DNA of 22,319 bases. Origin: a virus. Each line of letters opens with the position of its first letter. The stretch's first letter is position 1. The position numbers were made by a program, and so were the translations under genes. Positions 1,254 to 13,732 of this stretch are shown here, piece by piece. The notes below the pieces were generated by a model, which saw nothing but the letters and a program-made list of their open reading frames with translations, was not told the origin of the DNA and did no database searches. The stretch covers positions 1 to 22,319 of the IMG/VR virus record IMGVR_UViG_3300047550_002552. The stretch is one strand, 5' to 3'.

Positions 1254-1487
1254 ATGAACGATTACGACGACCTCATCAACCGCCTCCGCAACGCCTACAA
1301 GTGCTGCAAGGACTGCGGCACCAGATATGGCGTTTATAGCGTTGGGTGCAGCAGTAGCTGGATCGGCAAATGCGACATATGCGATGCCGAGACTTATGTC
1401 ACGGAAACGCGAGACTACGCTTATCTGATCACAGGTATTCGCCGTGTGGAGGCTGCTCGCAAAAGCGCTGGGGGAGCGCGCCAGTAA
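1254..1487 (+). CDS. Small zinc-ribbon-like protein, 77 aa
   Basis: The N-terminal helix (MNDYDDLINRLRNAY) is followed by a Cys cluster: C17, C18, C21, C32, C40 and C43, in the pattern CCKDCG...C...CDIC. Two CxxC knuckles about 20 residues apart are typical of a zinc ribbon. This is followed by a conserved-looking TETRDYAYLI segment. Such proteins are common in phages as small DNA- or protein-binding accessories, but there is no specific function to assign. It is the last gene of the first plus-strand run and ends 13 bp before the end of the minus-strand helix-turn-helix gene. Confidence 0.75.
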   Translation: MNDYDDLINRLRNAYKCCKDCGTRYGVYSVGCSSSWIGKCDICDAETYVTETRDYAYLITGIRRVEAARKSAGGARQ

Positions 1488-4801: not shown

Positions 4802-5014
4802 ATGCACTGGATCGAGGAAGATGCTGGCAAAACACAGCATGGAGAAGGAATTAGCAGAGCGCCAGTGGGCGCAAAAACAAAAATGTTCCTTTTAACGGTA
4901 AAGCAACCAGGTGCAAAGCCAATGAAATTCAGCATTCCCGCAGAATCACCGGCACGCGCCAAACAATATGCAATTGCGCGTTGGCCGATGGCGCAGGTGG
5001 AGGTGGTGAAATGA
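4802..5014 (+). CDS. Hypothetical protein, 70 aa
   Basis: Starts MHWIEEDAGKTQHGEG. The better-conserved-looking part is the C-terminal 43 residues, MFLLTVKQPGAKPMKFSIPA followed by ESPARAKQYAIARWPMAQVE. This reads as a small beta-beta-alpha domain, and an alternative start at that internal ATG is possible. The stop overlaps the thyX start as ATGA at 5011-5014, so translation of the two is probably coupled. Function unknown. Confidence 0.6.
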   Translation: MHWIEEDAGKTQHGEGISRAPVGAKTKMFLLTVKQPGAKPMKFSIPAESPARAKQYAIARWPMAQVEVVK

Positions 5015-5637
5015 GCCGCGTGAGCTTGGTGCATTGCACATCAGACGCAGAGAAGCTGATCGTGCGTATGGCGCGAGTGTCAAATCCATCGAATCAGGAC
5101 AACGACGAGACAGCGCCCCGGCTGCTGCGCTACCTGATCAAGCACTCGCACTGGAGCCCCTTTCAAATGGCGACGATGTGCGTACAGATCGACACTGAAC
5201 GCGATATTGCTGCTCAGATTTTGCGTCATTCTTCGTTTGCATTTCAAGAGTTCAGCACCCGCTACGCCAAGACTGACATCGCCGATCCACCACACCAGCG
5301 ATTGCAGGACCACAAAAATCGGCAAAACAGCATTGATGAGCTGGAGTCATACATGCAGAACTACTGGGCAGAGCGGACTAGTGATGTAATTGCTCGATCG
5401 TTCAGTCTTTACGAGCAAATGCTTGAAGAAGGGCTTGCCAAGGAAACAGCACGTCGGATTCTGCCGCTTTGTACGCCAACCACGCTTTATATGTGCGGCT
5501 CGCTGCGTTCATGGCTGCATTACATCGAGCTGCGTTCGGCACACGGCACCCAGCTGGAGCACCAAGAGATCGCGCTTGCTTGTCGCGACATTTTTACTGA
5601 GCAGTTTCCGGTTATCGCGGAGGCAGCCTTTGCATAG
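5011..5637 (+). CDS. thyX: Flavin-dependent thymidylate synthase ThyX
   Basis: 208 aa. ThyX makes dTMP from dUMP using FAD, NADPH and methylene-tetrahydrofolate. Landmarks are HWSPFQM (47-53), the signature region RHSSFAFQEFSTRY (72-85), and RSWLHYIELR (166-175) followed by QLEHQEIA. The canonical signature begins RHR. Here the third residue is Ser (S74), while E80, S82 and R84 are kept. The FQEFS-x-RY core is the form I remember from cyanobacteria and cyanophages. I chose ATG 5011 (ATGA overlap with the upstream stop) over an upstream TTG that adds MADGAGGGGE. With Dcd and the dNMP kinase it forms a dTTP supply route. Confidence 0.93.
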   Translation: MSRVSLVHCTSDAEKLIVRMARVSNPSNQDNDETAPRLLRYLIKHSHWSPFQMATMCVQIDTERDIAAQILRHSSFAFQEFSTRYAKTDIADPPHQRLQDHKNRQNSIDELESYMQNYWAERTSDVIARSFSLYEQMLEEGLAKETARRILPLCTPTTLYMCGSLRSWLHYIELRSAHGTQLEHQEIALACRDIFTEQFPVIAEAAFA

Positions 5638-5923
5638 CTGCACTCACGAATACGTCACGATCGAGTCCAGGCCGACACCTGATGGTATCCGCAGGCGCAA
5701 GCGCTGCAAGCACTGCCACACCAGGATCACAACTCATGAAGTGTCAGCTGACTTTTACGAAACCGCTAAGCAGAATCAGGCGATAGTCGACAAGATGCGC
5801 GCTTTGCTGCCAAGTGAAGTTTTATGCAAGACCTGCATACACAACACTGGTACTGCTTGCAACTTCGACTTGCCTGAGTACAACACCAATGACTCTTACG
5901 ATTGTAATTTGTTTTGTAATTAG
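5630..5923 (+). CDS. Zinc-binding protein, 97 aa: NrdR-like ribbon plus Cys-rich tail module
   Basis: The start is TTG 5630, supported by GCGGAGG at 5617-5623, 6 nt upstream, and an 8-nt overlap with thyX. The N-terminal half has CTH (4-6), then IESRPTPDGIRRRKRC and CKHCHTRITTHEV (C26, C29). This echoes the zinc ribbon of NrdR (R-R-R-x-C-x2-C-x2-R-x-TT-x-E), although the ATP-cone is absent. The C-terminal 32 residues form the Cys-rich module shared with 5927-6214 and 7299-7604: CKTCIH (66-71), C77, FDLPE, DCNLF (91-95). Two zinc sites are likely. DNA binding is inference from the ribbon. Confidence 0.75.
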   Translation: MHSCTHEYVTIESRPTPDGIRRRKRCKHCHTRITTHEVSADFYETAKQNQAIVDKMRALLPSEVLCKTCIHNTGTACNFDLPEYNTNDSYDCNLFCN

Positions 5924-5926
5924 CTT

Positions 5927-6214
5927 ATGGCTCACTCCAAAAACGCCCGGCCGTGTATAACTTGCGGCCGCATGACCACCAGCCTTCTGCAATGCCCGGC
6001 TTGCTACAAGCAAACCGATGCAGGCAAAGCAGAAGCAAAGCTGAAAAATCGGTTACAGAAGTATAAACCTGTACATAATGGCGGCCCATGTGCGACATGC
6101 TTGCACTGGATTGGTCGCTGCGGTCTCGGTCTGCCGGAAGGCGGATCAAAATATGCTTGCGACTGCTCACTGCTTTTACTTCAAAACGAATTATGCGCAG
6201 CCACCCATTCCTAA
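5927..6214 (+). CDS. Double zinc-ribbon protein, 95 aa, with Cys-rich tail module
   Basis: The N-terminal ribbon has C10, C13, C23 and C26 (CITCG...CPACYK). A basic helical linker rich in Lys (about 31-49) leads to the shared module CATCLHW (55-61), C65, GLGLPEG, DCSLL (79-83), then a short tail ending ATHS. It starts 3 nt after the previous stop. The two adjacent genes share only the C-terminal module, and their N-terminal domains differ. Function unknown. The Cys/His spacing suggests metal binding rather than disulfides in a cytoplasmic phage protein. Confidence 0.75.
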   Translation: MAHSKNARPCITCGRMTTSLLQCPACYKQTDAGKAEAKLKNRLQKYKPVHNGGPCATCLHWIGRCGLGLPEGGSKYACDCSLLLLQNELCAATHS

Positions 6215-6426
6215 ATCCAATCGAGGCGGCTCTTATCCGTTGGATTAGCCGTTCCCCTCGGGTCGGCATGATTGTGGTCAAGGAGCACAGCTCTCTTGTG
6301 ACTTGGATTATCCGCGATCAATCTGATCCTCTCGCGGCCGATACCGAGCCAGAAGATGAAGACTTCCCAGAGCCGCCATCGATGCAGCTCGAGCGGCTTT
6401 ACCATGCACCCGACGCTCAGCGTTAG
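6193..6426 (+). CDS. Hypothetical protein, 77 aa, acidic tail
   Basis: I chose ATG 6193 (MRSHPFLNPIEAALIRWISR), which overlaps the previous gene by 22 nt. The upstream in-frame ATG at 6088 would overlap by over 120 nt. The sequence looks like a compact domain with a strand pair (GMIVVKEHSSLVTWII) followed by an acidic linker (AADTEPEDEDFPEPP). Function unknown. No Shine-Dalgarno sequence was seen. Confidence 0.6.
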   Translation: MRSHPFLNPIEAALIRWISRSPRVGMIVVKEHSSLVTWIIRDQSDPLAADTEPEDEDFPEPPSMQLERLYHAPDAQR

Positions 6427-6477
6427 GTTTTCATGTACCTGCCCAGCGCAGGGGTAGGGTCTTTTGGCGTCCACCCC

Positions 6478-6615
6478 ATGATTTGGGGTATTGAAACCTA
6501 TTTCAAACCTTGGTTTTTTGATGGAAAAGTCGTTCATTGGGGGCCCACGTCCCCTGACCACCGAGATGCTTTGCGAACCGCTCAAGCCATGGCAAGTGGA
6601 AACTGGCAAAGCTGA
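6478..6615 (+). CDS. Doubtful small frame, 45 aa
   Basis: A frame from ATG 6478 (extendable to 6433) encodes MIWGIETYFKPWFFDGK and ends DALRTAQAMASGNWQS. It reads quite naturally and would fill the 94-bp gap before the 79-aa gene. However, it overlaps that gene by about 95 nt in another frame and contains an imperfect hairpin. Only one of the two frames is likely to be translated in the overlap, and I favour the 79-aa gene. It is kept because the residue pattern is better than random. Confidence 0.3.
   Translation: MIWGIETYFKPWFFDGKVVHWGPTSPDHRDALRTAQAMASGNWQS
6487..6520 (+). promoter_or_regulatory. Imperfect hairpin followed by T-run
   Basis: GGTATTGAAA (6487-6496), a CCTA loop, and TTTCAAACC (6501-6509) form an AT-rich imperfect stem, followed by TTGGTTTTTTG. 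It ends just before ATG 6521. The shape is that of a weak intrinsic terminator or attenuator ahead of the last nucleotide-metabolism genes, or an operator dyad. The stem is only moderately stable. Confidence 0.35.
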
Positions 6616-6760
6616 ATTTCTTGACTACCTTTACGAGCTATATGACCGTGCAAACGCCGAACCTGGCGTGCGCGGCACATATACCGGTCTGTGGGATCGA
6701 TTCAAGTCTGATACCGCAGAGATTATGCGGGCCGGTCACATAACAAGCGGTGCTCTTTAA
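6521..6760 (+). CDS. Hypothetical protein, 79 aa
   Basis: Starts MEKSFIGGPRPLTTEMLCEP, followed by helices WQVETGKAEFLDYLYELYDRA and GTYTGLWDRFKSDTAEI. I favour ATG 6521. An in-frame TTG at 6491 and an ATG at 6566 are alternatives. The stop overlaps the kinase start as TAATG, so the two are probably coupled. Aromatic-rich amphipathic helices suggest a small folded domain, with no recognised function. Confidence 0.65.
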   Translation: MEKSFIGGPRPLTTEMLCEPLKPWQVETGKAEFLDYLYELYDRANAEPGVRGTYTGLWDRFKSDTAEIMRAGHITSGAL

Positions 6761-7296
6761 TGCAAAAAATTATTGGTCTTTACAGCCCGGCACCGCAATC
6801 GGGCAAATCAACTGTTGCGAGCGAACTTGAGCAGCGCGGTTACGTGATCGTGCCATTTGCTGAAACGCTCAAGCTAATGCTGATTCCAATGTTGGAGTCA
6901 CTTGGCTATGACCGACAAGGCGCAAATTATCTGGTACATCAAGCCAAACAGGTTGTTGTCGGCGATGCTGGCGTCAGCGTGCGGCATATGTTGCAGACGT
7001 TGGGCACAGAATGGGGCCGTAGCTGCATTCATCCAGAAATTTGGGTGCGCTGCTGGAAAGGTCGCGCTCAACAGTATTCGGCTGTTGTAGCTGATGACGT
7101 GCGCTTCCCCAACGAAGCCGCAATGATCAAGCTGCTTGGTGGCGAAATGTGGCGCATTGAACGACCCGGTGTACCGCGCGAACACGGTCACGCCAGCGAA
7201 GGGAGTCTTGATGGCTACGACGGCTTTGATCGCTTTATCACAAATGATGGGACAATTGATGACTTGATCTCTAAACTCCGGGAAATACCCGTGTAA
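6760..7296 (+). CDS. Deoxynucleoside monophosphate kinase
   Basis: 178 aa. Phage dNMP kinases (T4 gp1-like, P-loop family) phosphorylate dNMPs to dNDPs. The P-loop is at SPAPQSGKST (9-18). The first Gly of the classic GxxxxGK[ST] is Pro here. It is followed by VPFAETLK (31-38), the family-typical SVRHMLQTLGTEWGR (about 73-87) and VVADDVRFPNEA (about 108-119), then WRIERPG. The C-terminal FITNDGTIDDL is also typical. The start overlaps the previous stop (TAATG). It would act on the dTMP made by ThyX. Regeneration of all four dNDPs is family knowledge, not shown here. Confidence 0.88.
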   Translation: MQKIIGLYSPAPQSGKSTVASELEQRGYVIVPFAETLKLMLIPMLESLGYDRQGANYLVHQAKQVVVGDAGVSVRHMLQTLGTEWGRSCIHPEIWVRCWKGRAQQYSAVVADDVRFPNEAAMIKLLGGEMWRIERPGVPREHGHASEGSLDGYDGFDRFITNDGTIDDLISKLREIPV

Positions 7297-7298
7297 AA

Positions 7299-7604
7299 AT
7301 GGCGAGTTTGCGTTATCACGCCGGTCGGATGGTGCTTTACGAGGCGCCACCCGGCTGGCGGGTACGCATTAAGACCAAGACAGGCAAGGTTGACTTGCCG
7401 CTTGAATCGGCTGCCTTGGACGATGCGGTATCAGAAGCCGAGCAACTTTATGCCGATGCTCGTGCGATTGACGACAGCCATCCGTATTGTCAGCAGTGCA
7501 TTCACTGGAGGGCAGTTGCGGCAAAATGTGACTTAGGGTTTCCTGAAGGGAGAGCGTCCGGTGGCCGATTCGCACGAGACTGCAGTGCCTTCCGGGGCAA
7601 TTGA
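7299..7604 (+). CDS. Hypothetical protein, 101 aa, with Cys-rich tail module
   Basis: The N-terminal domain (1-60) is beta-rich then helical: YHAGRMVLYEAPPGWRVRIK, then LESAALDDAVSEAEQLYADA. It is unlike the N-termini of the other module carriers. The tail has CQQCIHW (64-70), C77, DLGFPEG and DCSAF (94-98), matching the modules at 5630-5923 and 5927-6214. It starts 2 nt after the kinase stop, so it is probably co-translated with it. The function is unknown, and metal binding by the tail is inferred from the invariant Cys/His spacing. Confidence 0.75.
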   Translation: MASLRYHAGRMVLYEAPPGWRVRIKTKTGKVDLPLESAALDDAVSEAEQLYADARAIDDSHPYCQQCIHWRAVAAKCDLGFPEGRASGGRFARDCSAFRGN

Positions 7605-8084: not shown

Positions 8085-8609
8085 CTAGGACTGCTGCTCC
8101 CAGCTTGGCATCACGCGAGGTTGTTTGTTGTAATGTCCCACTTCTGCGTAGTCGATATCAGGGATCCCGGCGGTTATGACAAAAATCATCTGACCAATTT
8201 TCAGGCCAGGATATAGCGGAAGGGAATGGTAACGTCGACCATTGGTTAGCTCTAAAGTTAGCTTACTTCCACACCACTGGGGATCTGCAAATCCTGCGTG
8301 AAAATGTTCATAGCCTTCACGCGCACGACTAGATTTAAGGCAAAACATTCCGCATACATCATTTGGCATGTTGAATGTTTCGCGGGTCTCCGCTAACACA
8401 AACTCGCCCGGCGCCAGCCAGTAAGGATTCTCAGCGCTGCAGTGAGCAATCGATTGAAGCTGCAGCTCTGACGTGTGCTCCACCTCCACCATGATGTTGT
8501 CACCGAGTCTGAGATCAAGCGACGCAGGGTTTAGCAGTTCAGGCTCGAATGGCTCGATCATCCGCTCCTCTTCGATGAGGCGCTGGATTTCGGTGTCGTG
8601 GAGGATCAT
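8085..8609 (-). CDS. dcd: dCTP deaminase
   Basis: 174 aa from ATG 8609. A TTG two codons upstream is a less likely start. It deaminates dCTP to dUTP, feeding dUMP to ThyX. The dUTPase/dCTP deaminase trimer-fold landmarks are NPASLDLRLGD (27-37), LAPGEFVLAETRE (65-77), LKSSRAREG (91-99), HAGFADPQWCGSKLTLELTN (104-123, with E120 at the catalytic Glu position), LYPGLKIGQMIF (132-143), and a C-terminal GHYNKQPRVMPS that closes the active site. The usual Thr/Gly pattern around the DPxW loop fits a deaminase rather than a dUTPase. A bifunctional enzyme cannot be excluded. It is separated from thyX by about 2.5 kb and lies on the opposite strand. Confidence 0.92.
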   Translation of the reverse strand: MILHDTEIQRLIEEERMIEPFEPELLNPASLDLRLGDNIMVEVEHTSELQLQSIAHCSAENPYWLAPGEFVLAETRETFNMPNDVCGMFCLKSSRAREGYEHFHAGFADPQWCGSKLTLELTNGRRYHSLPLYPGLKIGQMIFVITAGIPDIDYAEVGHYNKQPRVMPSWEQQS

Positions 8610-8630
8610 CGGCAAGTGCTAGCGCGAATT

Positions 8631-8682
8631 CAGCTTAAGCTGTTAAGATTTTGGTGCTTCAGCGGGTTGCAGCCCCTGAAGC
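8631..8682. repeat. Palindrome plus bulged hairpin upstream of dcd
   Basis: Two inverted repeats lie between the dcd start (8609) and the plus-strand HNH gene (8709). CAGCTTAAGCTG at 8631-8642 is a perfect 12-bp palindrome. The second is a long stem: GCTTCAG (8656-8662), a bulged C, GGG, a TTGCAG loop, CCC, and CTGAAGC (8676-8682). Neither is followed by a T-run on either strand. Possible roles are an operator for dcd, a processed or protective 5' leader, or a bidirectional transcription block where the two arms meet. Confidence 0.5.
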
Positions 8683-8708
8683 GTGACCAACTCACGAGCA
8701 CTGAGCTG

Positions 8709-9206
8709 ATGACCAGCATTATAGAACAGTGGAAACCAGTGCCCGGCTACGAAGGGCTGTATGAGGTTTCGGACCAAGGTAAAGTCAAAAGCTTGCGAAG
8801 CGGAAAGCTAATGAAATTATCGGTTGCAAATACCGGCTACATGCAGTTGCAGTTAAGCGATAAACATAGGCGCAGCGTTTGTCACGTTCATCGATTAGTG
8901 CTTGAGGCTTTTGTTGGACCTGCTCCAATCGGAATGGAAGGGTGTCACGCTAATGGTATTAGAACTGATAATCGACTGTCCAATCTTCGATGGGACACTA
9001 GAAAGGGAAATATGGCCGATGCTCGCAAGCACGGCCGAACCAACAGAGGCGAACGCAGTCCATCGGCAAAATTGACGCGAGAACAGGTGCTTGCTATCCG
9101 CGCTGCCATCGGAACTCAACGCGAAATTGCGTCTAGGTTTGGCATATCACGCGAACAGGCGCGTGATATACGTTCTGGCAAACGTTGGGGATGGCTTCAG
9201 GCGTAG
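8709..9206 (+). CDS. HNH homing endonuclease with NUMOD4 domain
   Basis: 165 aa from ATG 8709 (MTSIIEQWKPVPGYEG). Domains in order are NUMOD4 at about 5-31 (EQWKPVPGYEGLYEVSDQG), an I-HmuI-type HNH_3 core at about 66-110 (HRLVLEAFVG, then CHANGIRTDNRLSNLRWDT and KGNMADARKHG), and a C-terminal helix-turn-helix-like region (TREQVLAIRAAIGTQREIA, then SRFGISREQARDI). This is the standard layout of phage free-standing or intron-encoded homing enzymes. It is the only plus gene to the right of 7.8 kb and is inserted between dcd and the lysin. It converges on the lysin with a 10-bp overlap, which suggests insertion by homing. Confidence 0.9.
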   Translation: MTSIIEQWKPVPGYEGLYEVSDQGKVKSLRSGKLMKLSVANTGYMQLQLSDKHRRSVCHVHRLVLEAFVGPAPIGMEGCHANGIRTDNRLSNLRWDTRKGNMADARKHGRTNRGERSPSAKLTREQVLAIRAAIGTQREIASRFGISREQARDIRSGKRWGWLQA

Positions 9207-11375: not shown

Positions 11376-12314
11376 TTACCAACTCCAAATGCGGACGACG
11401 CCAGCGCCGCCATTACCGCCGTAATTATTAAAGCCACTGCTATTTGTTCCGGCGGTGCCACCGCCGCCGCCACCACCGGGAAACGCCCCGCTTCCTCCGG
11501 GGCGACCAGAATCACTTGCTTGACCACCACCACCGCCATCGCCGGGATTTACTCCGTCTGATCCGCTTCCAGTGCCTAGCGGTCCGCTATTTGAATTAGA
11601 TCCACCCAGTCCTCCTCCTCCAACTTGAGTGCGAGAGGTGCCACTGTTCAGCCATTCCGAGAATCCCTGTCCGCCGTCGCCGCCGTCGAAGGCAAAGTTG
11701 GACGAGTTAATACCCCCACCAGCACCACCGCCGCCAGGGCCGAAAGCAGATCTATAGCCAGGGTTTACTGTGTTTGAGGTAGATGAACCTCCTGCTGCGC
11801 CCCATATTCCGCCGGAAATATCACCTATATTGTGGCCGTAGTAAGGCAGCCCTAAAGAAGAAATGCTTTGTCCTTGAACACCACCAATGCCACCTAAGCC
11901 ACCAACAGAAATGAGGTGATTTCCGAAAGACGAAGACCCTCCATTTCCGCCTGCTGTGCCATTTGTATTGTCTGCAAAAGTCGGAGGCGCTCCAAAGCCC
12001 ATAGCGCCGACTGTGATAGTTACAGTCGAGCCAACAAAACTTGCTGGCAACCAACGGTAAGTAACTTTTCCGCTAGATCCGCCGCCTCCGCCGCATCTAA
12101 ATGTGCCACTAGCTCCCCGGCGACCACCACCGCCACCGCCACCGCCGCCAATACACTCGACATAAATAAACGTCACGCCAGCGGGTTTCGTCCAGGTGCC
12201 GCTGCTGGTGAACTCTTGGTAGTTGGCGGCGCTGGTTGCGACGTAATTTGGAAGGTTTAGCGTTCCACCAGTCGCTGTGATGGTGTCGGTGGCGTGGTTG
12301 ATATTGACAGACAT
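11376..12314 (-). CDS. Glycine-rich tail adhesin, 312 aa
   Basis: The short N-terminal adaptor (MSVNINHATDTITATGGTLNLPNY) is followed by the common phage motif FTSSGTWTKPAGVTFIYVECIGG. From residue 55 on it is a glycine-rich domain (runs of 4-9 Gly, repeated GGxG and GGAGG) ending GGAGVVRIWSW. Such domains form polyglycine-type sandwiches at the tips of phage adhesins (T4-like gp38 type) and contact the host surface. ATGA coupling to the upstream YadA-like fibre suggests the two act together. Receptor binding is inferred. The ligand is unknown. Confidence 0.8.
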   Translation of the reverse strand: MSVNINHATDTITATGGTLNLPNYVATSAANYQEFTSSGTWTKPAGVTFIYVECIGGGGGGGGGRRGASGTFRCGGGGGSSGKVTYRWLPASFVGSTVTITVGAMGFGAPPTFADNTNGTAGGNGGSSSFGNHLISVGGLGGIGGVQGQSISSLGLPYYGHNIGDISGGIWGAAGGSSTSNTVNPGYRSAFGPGGGGAGGGINSSNFAFDGGDGGQGFSEWLNSGTSRTQVGGGGLGGSNSNSGPLGTGSGSDGVNPGDGGGGGQASDSGRPGGSGAFPGGGGGGGTAGTNSSGFNNYGGNGGAGVVRIWSW

Positions 12315-13732
12315 CAGTAGGTCATCTCCGTGGTTTCAATTTTGGCTACGGTGCGAATGGTCGTGGCAGCAGCTCCAGTAAATGTAACGGCGATGCCGCC
12401 GTTTGTTGTGTCGGCAGTGATGGCGATTGTCCAGGCGGCTGCGCCTGCATCTTGAGCGATGGTGTTAATGATCACGGTGCCGACAATGGCTGTAGACGCT
12501 GCGTTTGCACCGCGCTTGATTGCGCCTTCAAATGTCCATGCTTTGGAATTGCCGCCGCCAGTAACGCCTGAAATCGCGCTGCCACGGAAGTAGTAGGCAC
12601 TGTTATTCGGCAGGATGACTTGGTTGGTGGTTGTGCCCGGTTGGTTATTGCTAGCGAGAACCGTTGCGGTAGCATCAGTGGTTTGGCGGGCTAGGAGCAG
12701 AAGCGCGGATTGTGTAGATCCAGCCGCACTAGATACTGGCTGGTTACATGCAGGAAAAACGTGATAGCCAACAATACTTCTTGTGTTGCCACTAGCCCCA
12801 CCCATCACTGCCGAATAACTTCCTGATGCAGTGTGTACTCCACCTCCTCCAATAAAAGTAGAACGACCAGAAGCCGTATTGCTTTCCCCACTTGCTACAC
12901 ACGCATTCGCCCCACTCGCCGTATTGCTATTACCCCCACACACCACAGCGTGCGTGTTGGTTTGGGCGGTGTTGCTCTGGCCTCCGCCGACGAAGCTGTA
13001 GTTGGTGGAGGCGGTGTTGGTGTTACCTCCGCCAATAAAAGCAGAGTTACCAGATACCGTGTTGTCACTCCCCCCGCAGACCGCAGCGTAAGTGCCAGTT
13101 TGGGCGCGGTTGCTCTGGCCGCCGCCTACAAAAGAAAGAGAAGATGATGCCGTGTTGGTATCTCCACCTACGACAACAGATTGTGATGCACTGGCAGTAT
13201 TGTTGGCTCCGCCTACAATAATAGAGTTTGAGCCAGATGCCGTGTTGCGATAGCCACCGGCAATAATCGAGTTATTTCCACTTGCTACCTGCGATGCACT
13301 ATTGCGATTTTTTTGCAAATCCGTCGCATAAGTTCCCCGCTTATTTCCACCTACTGCTGTCCCATCCGGCACCTGCGCGAGCGTTGCACCTGTGCCCTTA
13401 GCAACCAGCGCCACGTCAATGTTGGCAAAGCTGGCGTCAGTAGCCGTTAGCGCATCGACGGGAACTGTGGCATTAGGGCTGGCAGTTTCCTCGCTCTCGA
13501 CAAAATGTGTCAGCCCGCCGCCACCACCTGCTGTTGCCCACGACAGCACACCAGATCCATTGGTGCTCAGCACTTGACCGCTGGTGCCATCAGCAGACGG
13601 CAGTGTCCAGATGCGGTTGGTAGTGATGGTGGCAGGAGCCTTGAAGCCGACATAAGCAGACGAGTCCGCATCAGCCAGCCGCAGCTCGCGTTGCGCGTTG
13701 AGCGTTATGTCGGTTTCAAAAGCCCGTGCCAT
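12314..13732 (-). CDS. Tail fibre with YadA-head-like repeats, 472 aa
   Basis: The N-terminal adaptor (MARAFETDITLNAQRELRLA, then SSAYVGFKAPATITTNRIWTLPSADG and QVLSTNGSGVLSW) is of a type common in aquatic phage fibres. Residues 150-317 hold about eleven 14-16-residue units of the form ASGxNSxxxGGxxNT, the signature of trimeric YadA-head left-handed beta-rolls. The C-terminal 155 residues include NNQPGTTTNQVILPNNSAYY, a compact beta-rich domain. The protein is probably a trimeric fibre of the tail tip. Two repeat units carry Cys (VCGG), which is unusual. Confidence 0.85.
   Translation of the reverse strand: MARAFETDITLNAQRELRLADADSSAYVGFKAPATITTNRIWTLPSADGTSGQVLSTNGSGVLSWATAGGGGGLTHFVESEETASPNATVPVDALTATDASFANIDVALVAKGTGATLAQVPDGTAVGGNKRGTYATDLQKNRNSASQVASGNNSIIAGGYRNTASGSNSIIVGGANNTASASQSVVVGGDTNTASSSLSFVGGGQSNRAQTGTYAAVCGGSDNTVSGNSAFIGGGNTNTASTNYSFVGGGQSNTAQTNTHAVVCGGNSNTASGANACVASGESNTASGRSTFIGGGGVHTASGSYSAVMGGASGNTRSIVGYHVFPACNQPVSSAAGSTQSALLLLARQTTDATATVLASNNQPGTTTNQVILPNNSAYYFRGSAISGVTGGGNSKAWTFEGAIKRGANAASTAIVGTVIINTIAQDAGAAAWTIAITADTTNGGIAVTFTGAAATTIRTVAKIETTEMTY
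12782..13285 (-). repeat. Tandem 14-16-codon repeats within the fibre gene
   Basis: About eleven imperfect units of 42-48 bp encode ASGNNSIIAGGYRNT, ASGSNSIIVGGANNT and similar. They are degenerate at DNA level but keep the protein pattern. One pair is closely alike, the SFVGGGQSN units at about residues 200 and 247, each followed by AQT...VCGG, suggesting a two-unit (about 45-50-residue) duplication. Such arrays can change copy number by recombination and so alter fibre length. Confidence 0.75.

Follow-up and report, generated by a model that had tools for sequence, protein, structure and literature searches.

We report that three small proteins of a tailed phage, here termed P1, P2 and P3, end in one homologous module of about 37 residues that is carried on different N-terminal heads. 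The proteins are encoded in the left part of the IMG/VR virus record IMGVR_UViG_3300047550_002552, which was analysed over its whole 22,319 bases (the window). A sequence-only reading of the window had pointed to these three open reading frames (ORFs), which are present where it placed them (Table 1), and to one small module reused on different proteins; that observation is confirmed, and the interpretation given to it is partly supported. The reading that we favour, tentatively and short of even confidence, is that the tail is a homologous four-Cys metal-binding module set on a few types of small heads directed at DNA or transcription, and that P1 binds DNA in the manner of NrdR. The carriers of the module form a group of cyanophage-like tailed phages, in which its genes lie beside genes for deoxynucleoside triphosphate synthesis.

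The module follows the pattern C-x2-C-x-[HYF]-[WN]-x(3-6)-C-x-[LIFM]-x-[LFVY]-P-[ED]-x(8-11)-C-x2-[FYLM], and in the alignment of the three window tails the residues C, C, H, C, P, E, D and C are invariant. The single C-terminal pattern of the sequence-only reading stands insofar as the tails align, and its spacing before the third Cys has to be corrected from x(4-7) to x(3-6), P2 having x(3) (CATCLHWIGRC). Homology of the tails was assessed with profiles built from the tails of one family alone and run on every ORF in the loci retrieved. With the P1-only profile, 58/58 P2 tails (E from 5e-10 to 1e-6) and 82/82 P3 tails (E from 2e-11 to 4e-6) were recovered, and the best module-free ORF stood at E 0.066. 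Every P3 tail was also recovered by the P2-only profile (E ≤6e-4); the P3-only profile has a narrower reach and fails to find some P1 tails, including that of the window's own P1. The loosened pattern gave no match in 26,286 module-free ORFs (1.73 million residues) and none in 75,200 shuffled sequences. Ratios of nonsynonymous to synonymous substitution rates (dN/dS) of about 0.05 to 0.2 indicate that the P1, P2 and P3 genes are under purifying selection. Taken together, the cross-family profiles, the absence of control matches and the dN/dS values establish the module as real and homologous, and a search with the tail profile, which the sequence-only reading had proposed, returned homologous tails in viral contigs and in Synechococcus phage S-LBS1 rather than random Cys-rich matches. 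Pfam, PHROGs, NCBIfam and PDB sequences gave only noise with the module profile, and no description of the module, or of its fusion to an NrdR-like ribbon, came up in a limited search of the literature. Separate matches to Mycobacterium tape measure, Icarian and single-stranded DNA-binding (SSB) proteins, at E ≥6, were set aside as chance. By these searches it is an undescribed domain without a named family, as had been supposed.

Four Cys in the order C-x2(3)-C...C...C are present in 132/132 unique modules, that is, in all profile hits, with CxxxC replacing CxxC in a few copies. P-[ED] follows the third Cys, an aromatic residue or Leu/Met usually follows the fourth, and the second residue after CxxC is H, Y or F, with W next in most copies. 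Because this His gives way to Y or F, and the Asp preceding the last Cys in the window tails is often E, S, K or G in relatives, the constant core consists of the four Cys and P-[ED]. The His of C-x2-C-x-H was accordingly rejected as a metal ligand, and it probably does not serve as one. Metal binding, as put forward in the sequence-only reading, is well supported at the level of sequence: since the four Cys are kept in all profile hits, the module probably binds a metal, most likely zinc, a [4Fe-4S] cluster being possible. Were such a cluster bound, the tail might be a HiPIP-like domain that makes the DNA-binding heads responsive to redox state or oxygen, a proposal that we regard as distinctly unlikely. 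The Cys order of the module is the CX2CXnCXnC of the HiPIP-like small subunits of glycyl radical enzymes (PMC12358834), and an aromatic residue stands after its CxxC and usually also after its last Cys; however, the module profile matches neither HiPIP or related PDB chains nor any Pfam family, and one CX2CXnCXnC protein was found to hold one Fe atom within a rubredoxin-like fold (PMC12358834), so that the motif does not fix the metal.

A plain structural zinc knuckle, which would merely stabilise short proteins without a common partner or signal, is an unlikely explanation. Zinc ribbons are frequent in small phage proteins, and the ribbon protein in the slot of P1 can be module-free; on the other hand, dN/dS in P3 is not higher in the module than in the head (0.11 versus 0.15), and conservation extends beyond the Cys to P-[ED] and W; this suggests that the module does more than hold a metal.

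To judge from the residues that P1 shares with NrdR, its NrdR-type ribbon is most likely used to bind DNA. The match of P1 to PF22811, the NrdR-type ribbon, spans residues 4-37 and lies above the family cut-off. That to the NrdR family TIGR00244 is confined to residues 4-41 (profile positions 6-46 of 147, 26.8 bits versus a cut-off of 124.65); the NrdR match thus ends at the ribbon, and the Pfam scan found no ATP-cone in P1. In Streptomyces NrdR the DNA backbone is contacted by R12, R26-29 and R37, with D15 and R17 close to the bases (PMC9110341). Aligned with 7p37, P1 has E15, R17, R26-28, K29 and R37, keeping R17, R26-28 and R37 of the contact set with R29 replaced by K and D15 by E, and retaining E-S-R, RRRK and the R before x-T-T; relatives such as that in locus L159 have D-S-R and RRRK. 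The first ligand pair of the P1 ribbon is probably C-x-H. In many P1 relatives the ribbon and the module are separated by a helix-turn-helix that resembles the one in phage HNH endonucleases.

Having no ATP-cone, P1 would bind DNA without sensing ATP or dATP, and as the DNA-binding end of NrdR without the nucleotide sensor it may control genes for DNA building blocks. NrdR occurs in Synechococcus elongatus, which makes the NrdR boxes of host nrd promoters a plausible target. By occupying these boxes or competing for them, P1 could uncouple the expression of ribonucleotide reductase (RNR) from the repressor, while the module would stand in for the ATP-cone of NrdR in providing a stabilising or protein-protein contact. 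P2 and P3 would then be companion proteins, directed at nucleic acid or RNA polymerase (RNAP) and bearing the same module. The fullest form of this proposal, in which an ATP-cone-less NrdR mimic sits on host boxes at any dATP level and controls RNR and the module couples all three proteins to one partner, is highly doubtful.

Several findings weigh against the favoured reading of a metal-binding module on DNA- or transcription-directed heads. AlphaFold prediction of the module alone (51 sequences) gave a predicted local distance difference test score (pLDDT) of 49 and no confident fold, and no NrdR-box-like site was found in the window with up to 3 mismatches to a consensus. Other Synechococcus phages have NrdR-type ribbons that stand alone, with no module attached. 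Among the relatives nearest to the window (L003-L030), a different, module-free ribbon protein often fills the P1 slot, so that the module is not needed there; it is an addition open to gain and loss. In favour of the reading, in contigs without P3 a dCTP deaminase gene lies within 1.8 kb of P1 on the same strand in 43/60 cases, in two gene orders (mostly about 240-580 bases upstream of P1, or directly downstream); the weight of this count is limited in that it comes from related and partly redundant contigs and lacks a random-gene control.

The heads of the other two proteins bear out the claim of the sequence-only reading that the modules sit on otherwise different domains. The CxxC/CxxC ribbon of P2 is distinct from the NrdR-type ribbon of P1 and has no family match above noise in Pfam, PHROGs or NCBIfam. 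The P3 head (residues 1-58) is ribbon-free and gave a confident model with a beta-beta-beta-alpha (bbba) arrangement; the tail is unfolded in the full-length AlphaFold model of P3. The best solved match of the head is 3rmp_C, a P4-like integrase arm-binding domain (Z 5.5 over 52 residues, below the level of a sure relationship and too low to set the likeness apart from a merely frequent arrangement), and AP2 folds rank after it. The P3 of the window has no Pfam hit and matches phrog_1307 (T7 Gp2) weakly, at E 0.03; its relatives reach 7.7e-5 and 0.002 against the T7 Gp2 family, below the Pfam cut-off, and 26/34 members of the P3 family match phrog_1307, the best at 7.7e-5. Comparison of the P3 head with the T7 Gp2 family by hhalign gave a probability of 90 percent over 40 columns. 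The third strand of Gp2, which contacts RNAP, bears R56 and R58 (PMC3778932), and the alignment with P3 stops before that strand; the assignment of P3 to the Gp2 family was left at a weak resemblance. The few head types, namely the NrdR contact set, the helix-turn-helix, and the integrase-arm/AP2-like or Gp2-like fold, suggest DNA or transcription as their common theme.

The likeness of the P3 head to the core of an RNAP-binding protein also bears on the docking role put forward in the sequence-only reading, in which the tail would be a handle bringing P1, P2 and P3 to one partner, for example the host RNAP or a nucleotide-synthesis assembly of ThyX and the kinase. Such a role is rather unlikely, even though one module is present on three co-encoded proteins and most contigs with P3 carry the P2 copy as well: a single copy is found in S-LBS1, and many contigs carry P1 only, indicating that the trio is not required, and the part of Gp2 that contacts RNAP is the part outside the alignment.

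The module recurs in hundreds of viral contigs. A scan with P3 gave 232 related stretches, 80 of which were fetched for analysis, and 116 stretches were confirmed when P1-type tails served as the query. Among isolates, Synechococcus phage S-LBS1 carries its copy in SLBS1_A39 (ATS93211.1), listed as a hypothetical protein. The lone P3-family match in bacterial genomes (L114) is a short frame inside longer ORFs without the P3 head, and was rejected as chance. In a tree of 81 modules the copies cluster according to their heads, the P2 tails forming one clade with the P3 tails adjoining and the P1 tails broadest; with only 35 columns and many open forks, it shows clustering and not the order of events. 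L145, L147 and L149 (e.g. L149:3097-3510) encode, beside a P1, a divergent P3-like head that bears a module of its own and lacks the RYHAGR motif; these proteins are a distant branch of the P3 family. NrdR-type ribbons with neither ATP-cone nor module were seen in L206 (S-CRES2), L207 (Ssp-JY39) and L208 (S-SRP02), that of S-CRES2 not being annotated as a gene, and a gene named NrdR in one freshwater cyanophage is module-free by profile.

The location beside nucleotide-synthesis genes, also noted in the sequence-only reading, is borne out by synteny with thyX, the deoxynucleoside monophosphate (dNMP) kinase gene and the dCTP deaminase gene. In the left part of the window the plus strand encodes, in order, thyX, P1, P2, two small ORFs, the dNMP kinase and P3, followed by minus-strand HNH and dCTP deaminase genes and then by a region of tail genes. 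The order thyX-P1-P2-(two ORFs)-dNMP kinase-P3-(ORF)-HNH-dCTP deaminase is kept across P3-bearing contigs, in some of which thyX is replaced or undetected. The start codon of P1 is a TTG at 5630, preceded by GGAGG, and overlaps the stop codon of thyX (5635-5637). Several of the remaining contigs without P3 have genes for DNA polymerase A or terminase near P1, and in L138, L139 and L159 a gene for a family A DNA polymerase follows closely on P1 or P1-P2. Ahead of thyX, the leftmost plus-strand genes of the window look like recombination genes and an SSB gene, judging by sequence. Close DNA matches of the window to phage isolates amount to only about 85 bases, in a tail fibre gene of Synechococcus phages, and a cyanobacterial host is likely. 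Three further window genes are of note: a small module-free CxxC/CxxC protein (1254-1487, plus strand); a probable HNH endonuclease between two minus-strand genes (8598-9206, plus strand), whose C-terminal helix-turn-helix resembles the insert of the P1 relatives; and a tail protein (12314-13732, minus strand) whose many NTASGxxS-type repeats are reminiscent of those in adhesin heads.

Table 1. Features of the module-bearing region and one module-free counterpart of P1 (window coordinates unless a locus is given).
Feature	Position	Strand	Evidence and remarks
thyX (flavin-dependent thymidylate synthase)	5011..5637	+	PF02511 E 4e-42; overlaps P1 start
P1, 97 residues: NrdR-type zinc ribbon, helical linker, C-terminal four-Cys module	5630..5923	+	PF22811 E 1e-6; TIGR00244 E 4e-6
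P1 module copy CKTCIHNTGTACNFDLPEYNTNDSYDCNLFC	5825..5917, limits approximate	+	alignment and profile
P2, 95 residues: CxxC/CxxC ribbon and four-Cys module	5927..6214	+	
P2 module copy CATCLHWIGRCGLGLPEGGSKYACDCSLL	6089..6175, limits approximate	+	alignment and profile
Deoxynucleoside monophosphate kinase	6760..7296	+	PF21448 E 1e-12, phrog_139 E 2e-39; directly upstream of P3
P3, 101 residues: bbba head (residues 1-58) and four-Cys module	7299..7604	+	confident head model
P3 module copy CQQCIHWRAVAAKCDLGFPEGRASGGRFARDCSAF	7488..7592, limits approximate	+	alignment and profile
dCTP deaminase-like gene	8085..8615	-	PF22769 E 3e-30; homologues adjoin P1 in other contigs
Module-free ribbon protein in P1 slot, example VRCPSCDHYEMRVTHTARDTAESITRHRKCLKCGYKTFTVEVELPQG...	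L021:3343-3639		gap between thyX and P2

A profile of this unnamed domain offers an annotation for many phage proteins now called hypothetical. P1 offers a testable route by which a phage may bypass the nucleotide-sensing control of DNA precursor synthesis, the idea being that a sensor-less NrdR DNA-binding head is encoded beside thyX, the dNMP kinase and the dCTP deaminase.

Among known systems, P1 compares most directly with NrdR, with which its ribbon has the DNA-contacting positions E/D-S-R, RRRR/K and R-x-T-T in common; unlike NrdR, it has the four-Cys module, often together with a helix-turn-helix, in the place of the ATP-cone, and in the P1 of the window the first ligand pair looks like C-x-H. 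SLBS1_A39 of S-LBS1 holds ribbon, helix-turn-helix and module in one protein, as do many P1 relatives, but it is a single copy with P-D for P-E and F-W for H-W. The module resembles the HiPIP-like subunits HPAD gamma, BSS beta and MASS beta in Cys order and small size (PMC12358834), whereas it gives no profile match to them and its inter-Cys loops are shorter than in MASS beta. The modelled bbba arrangement of the P3 head resembles that of P4-like integrase arm-binding and AP2 domains, but P3 has no recombinase domain and the identity to the integrase domain is 17 percent. With T7 Gp2 (PF16857, phrog_1307) it is the bba core of the P3 head that aligns; unlike Gp2, P3 has an extra N-terminal strand and bears the module instead, the third strand of Gp2 lying outside the alignment.

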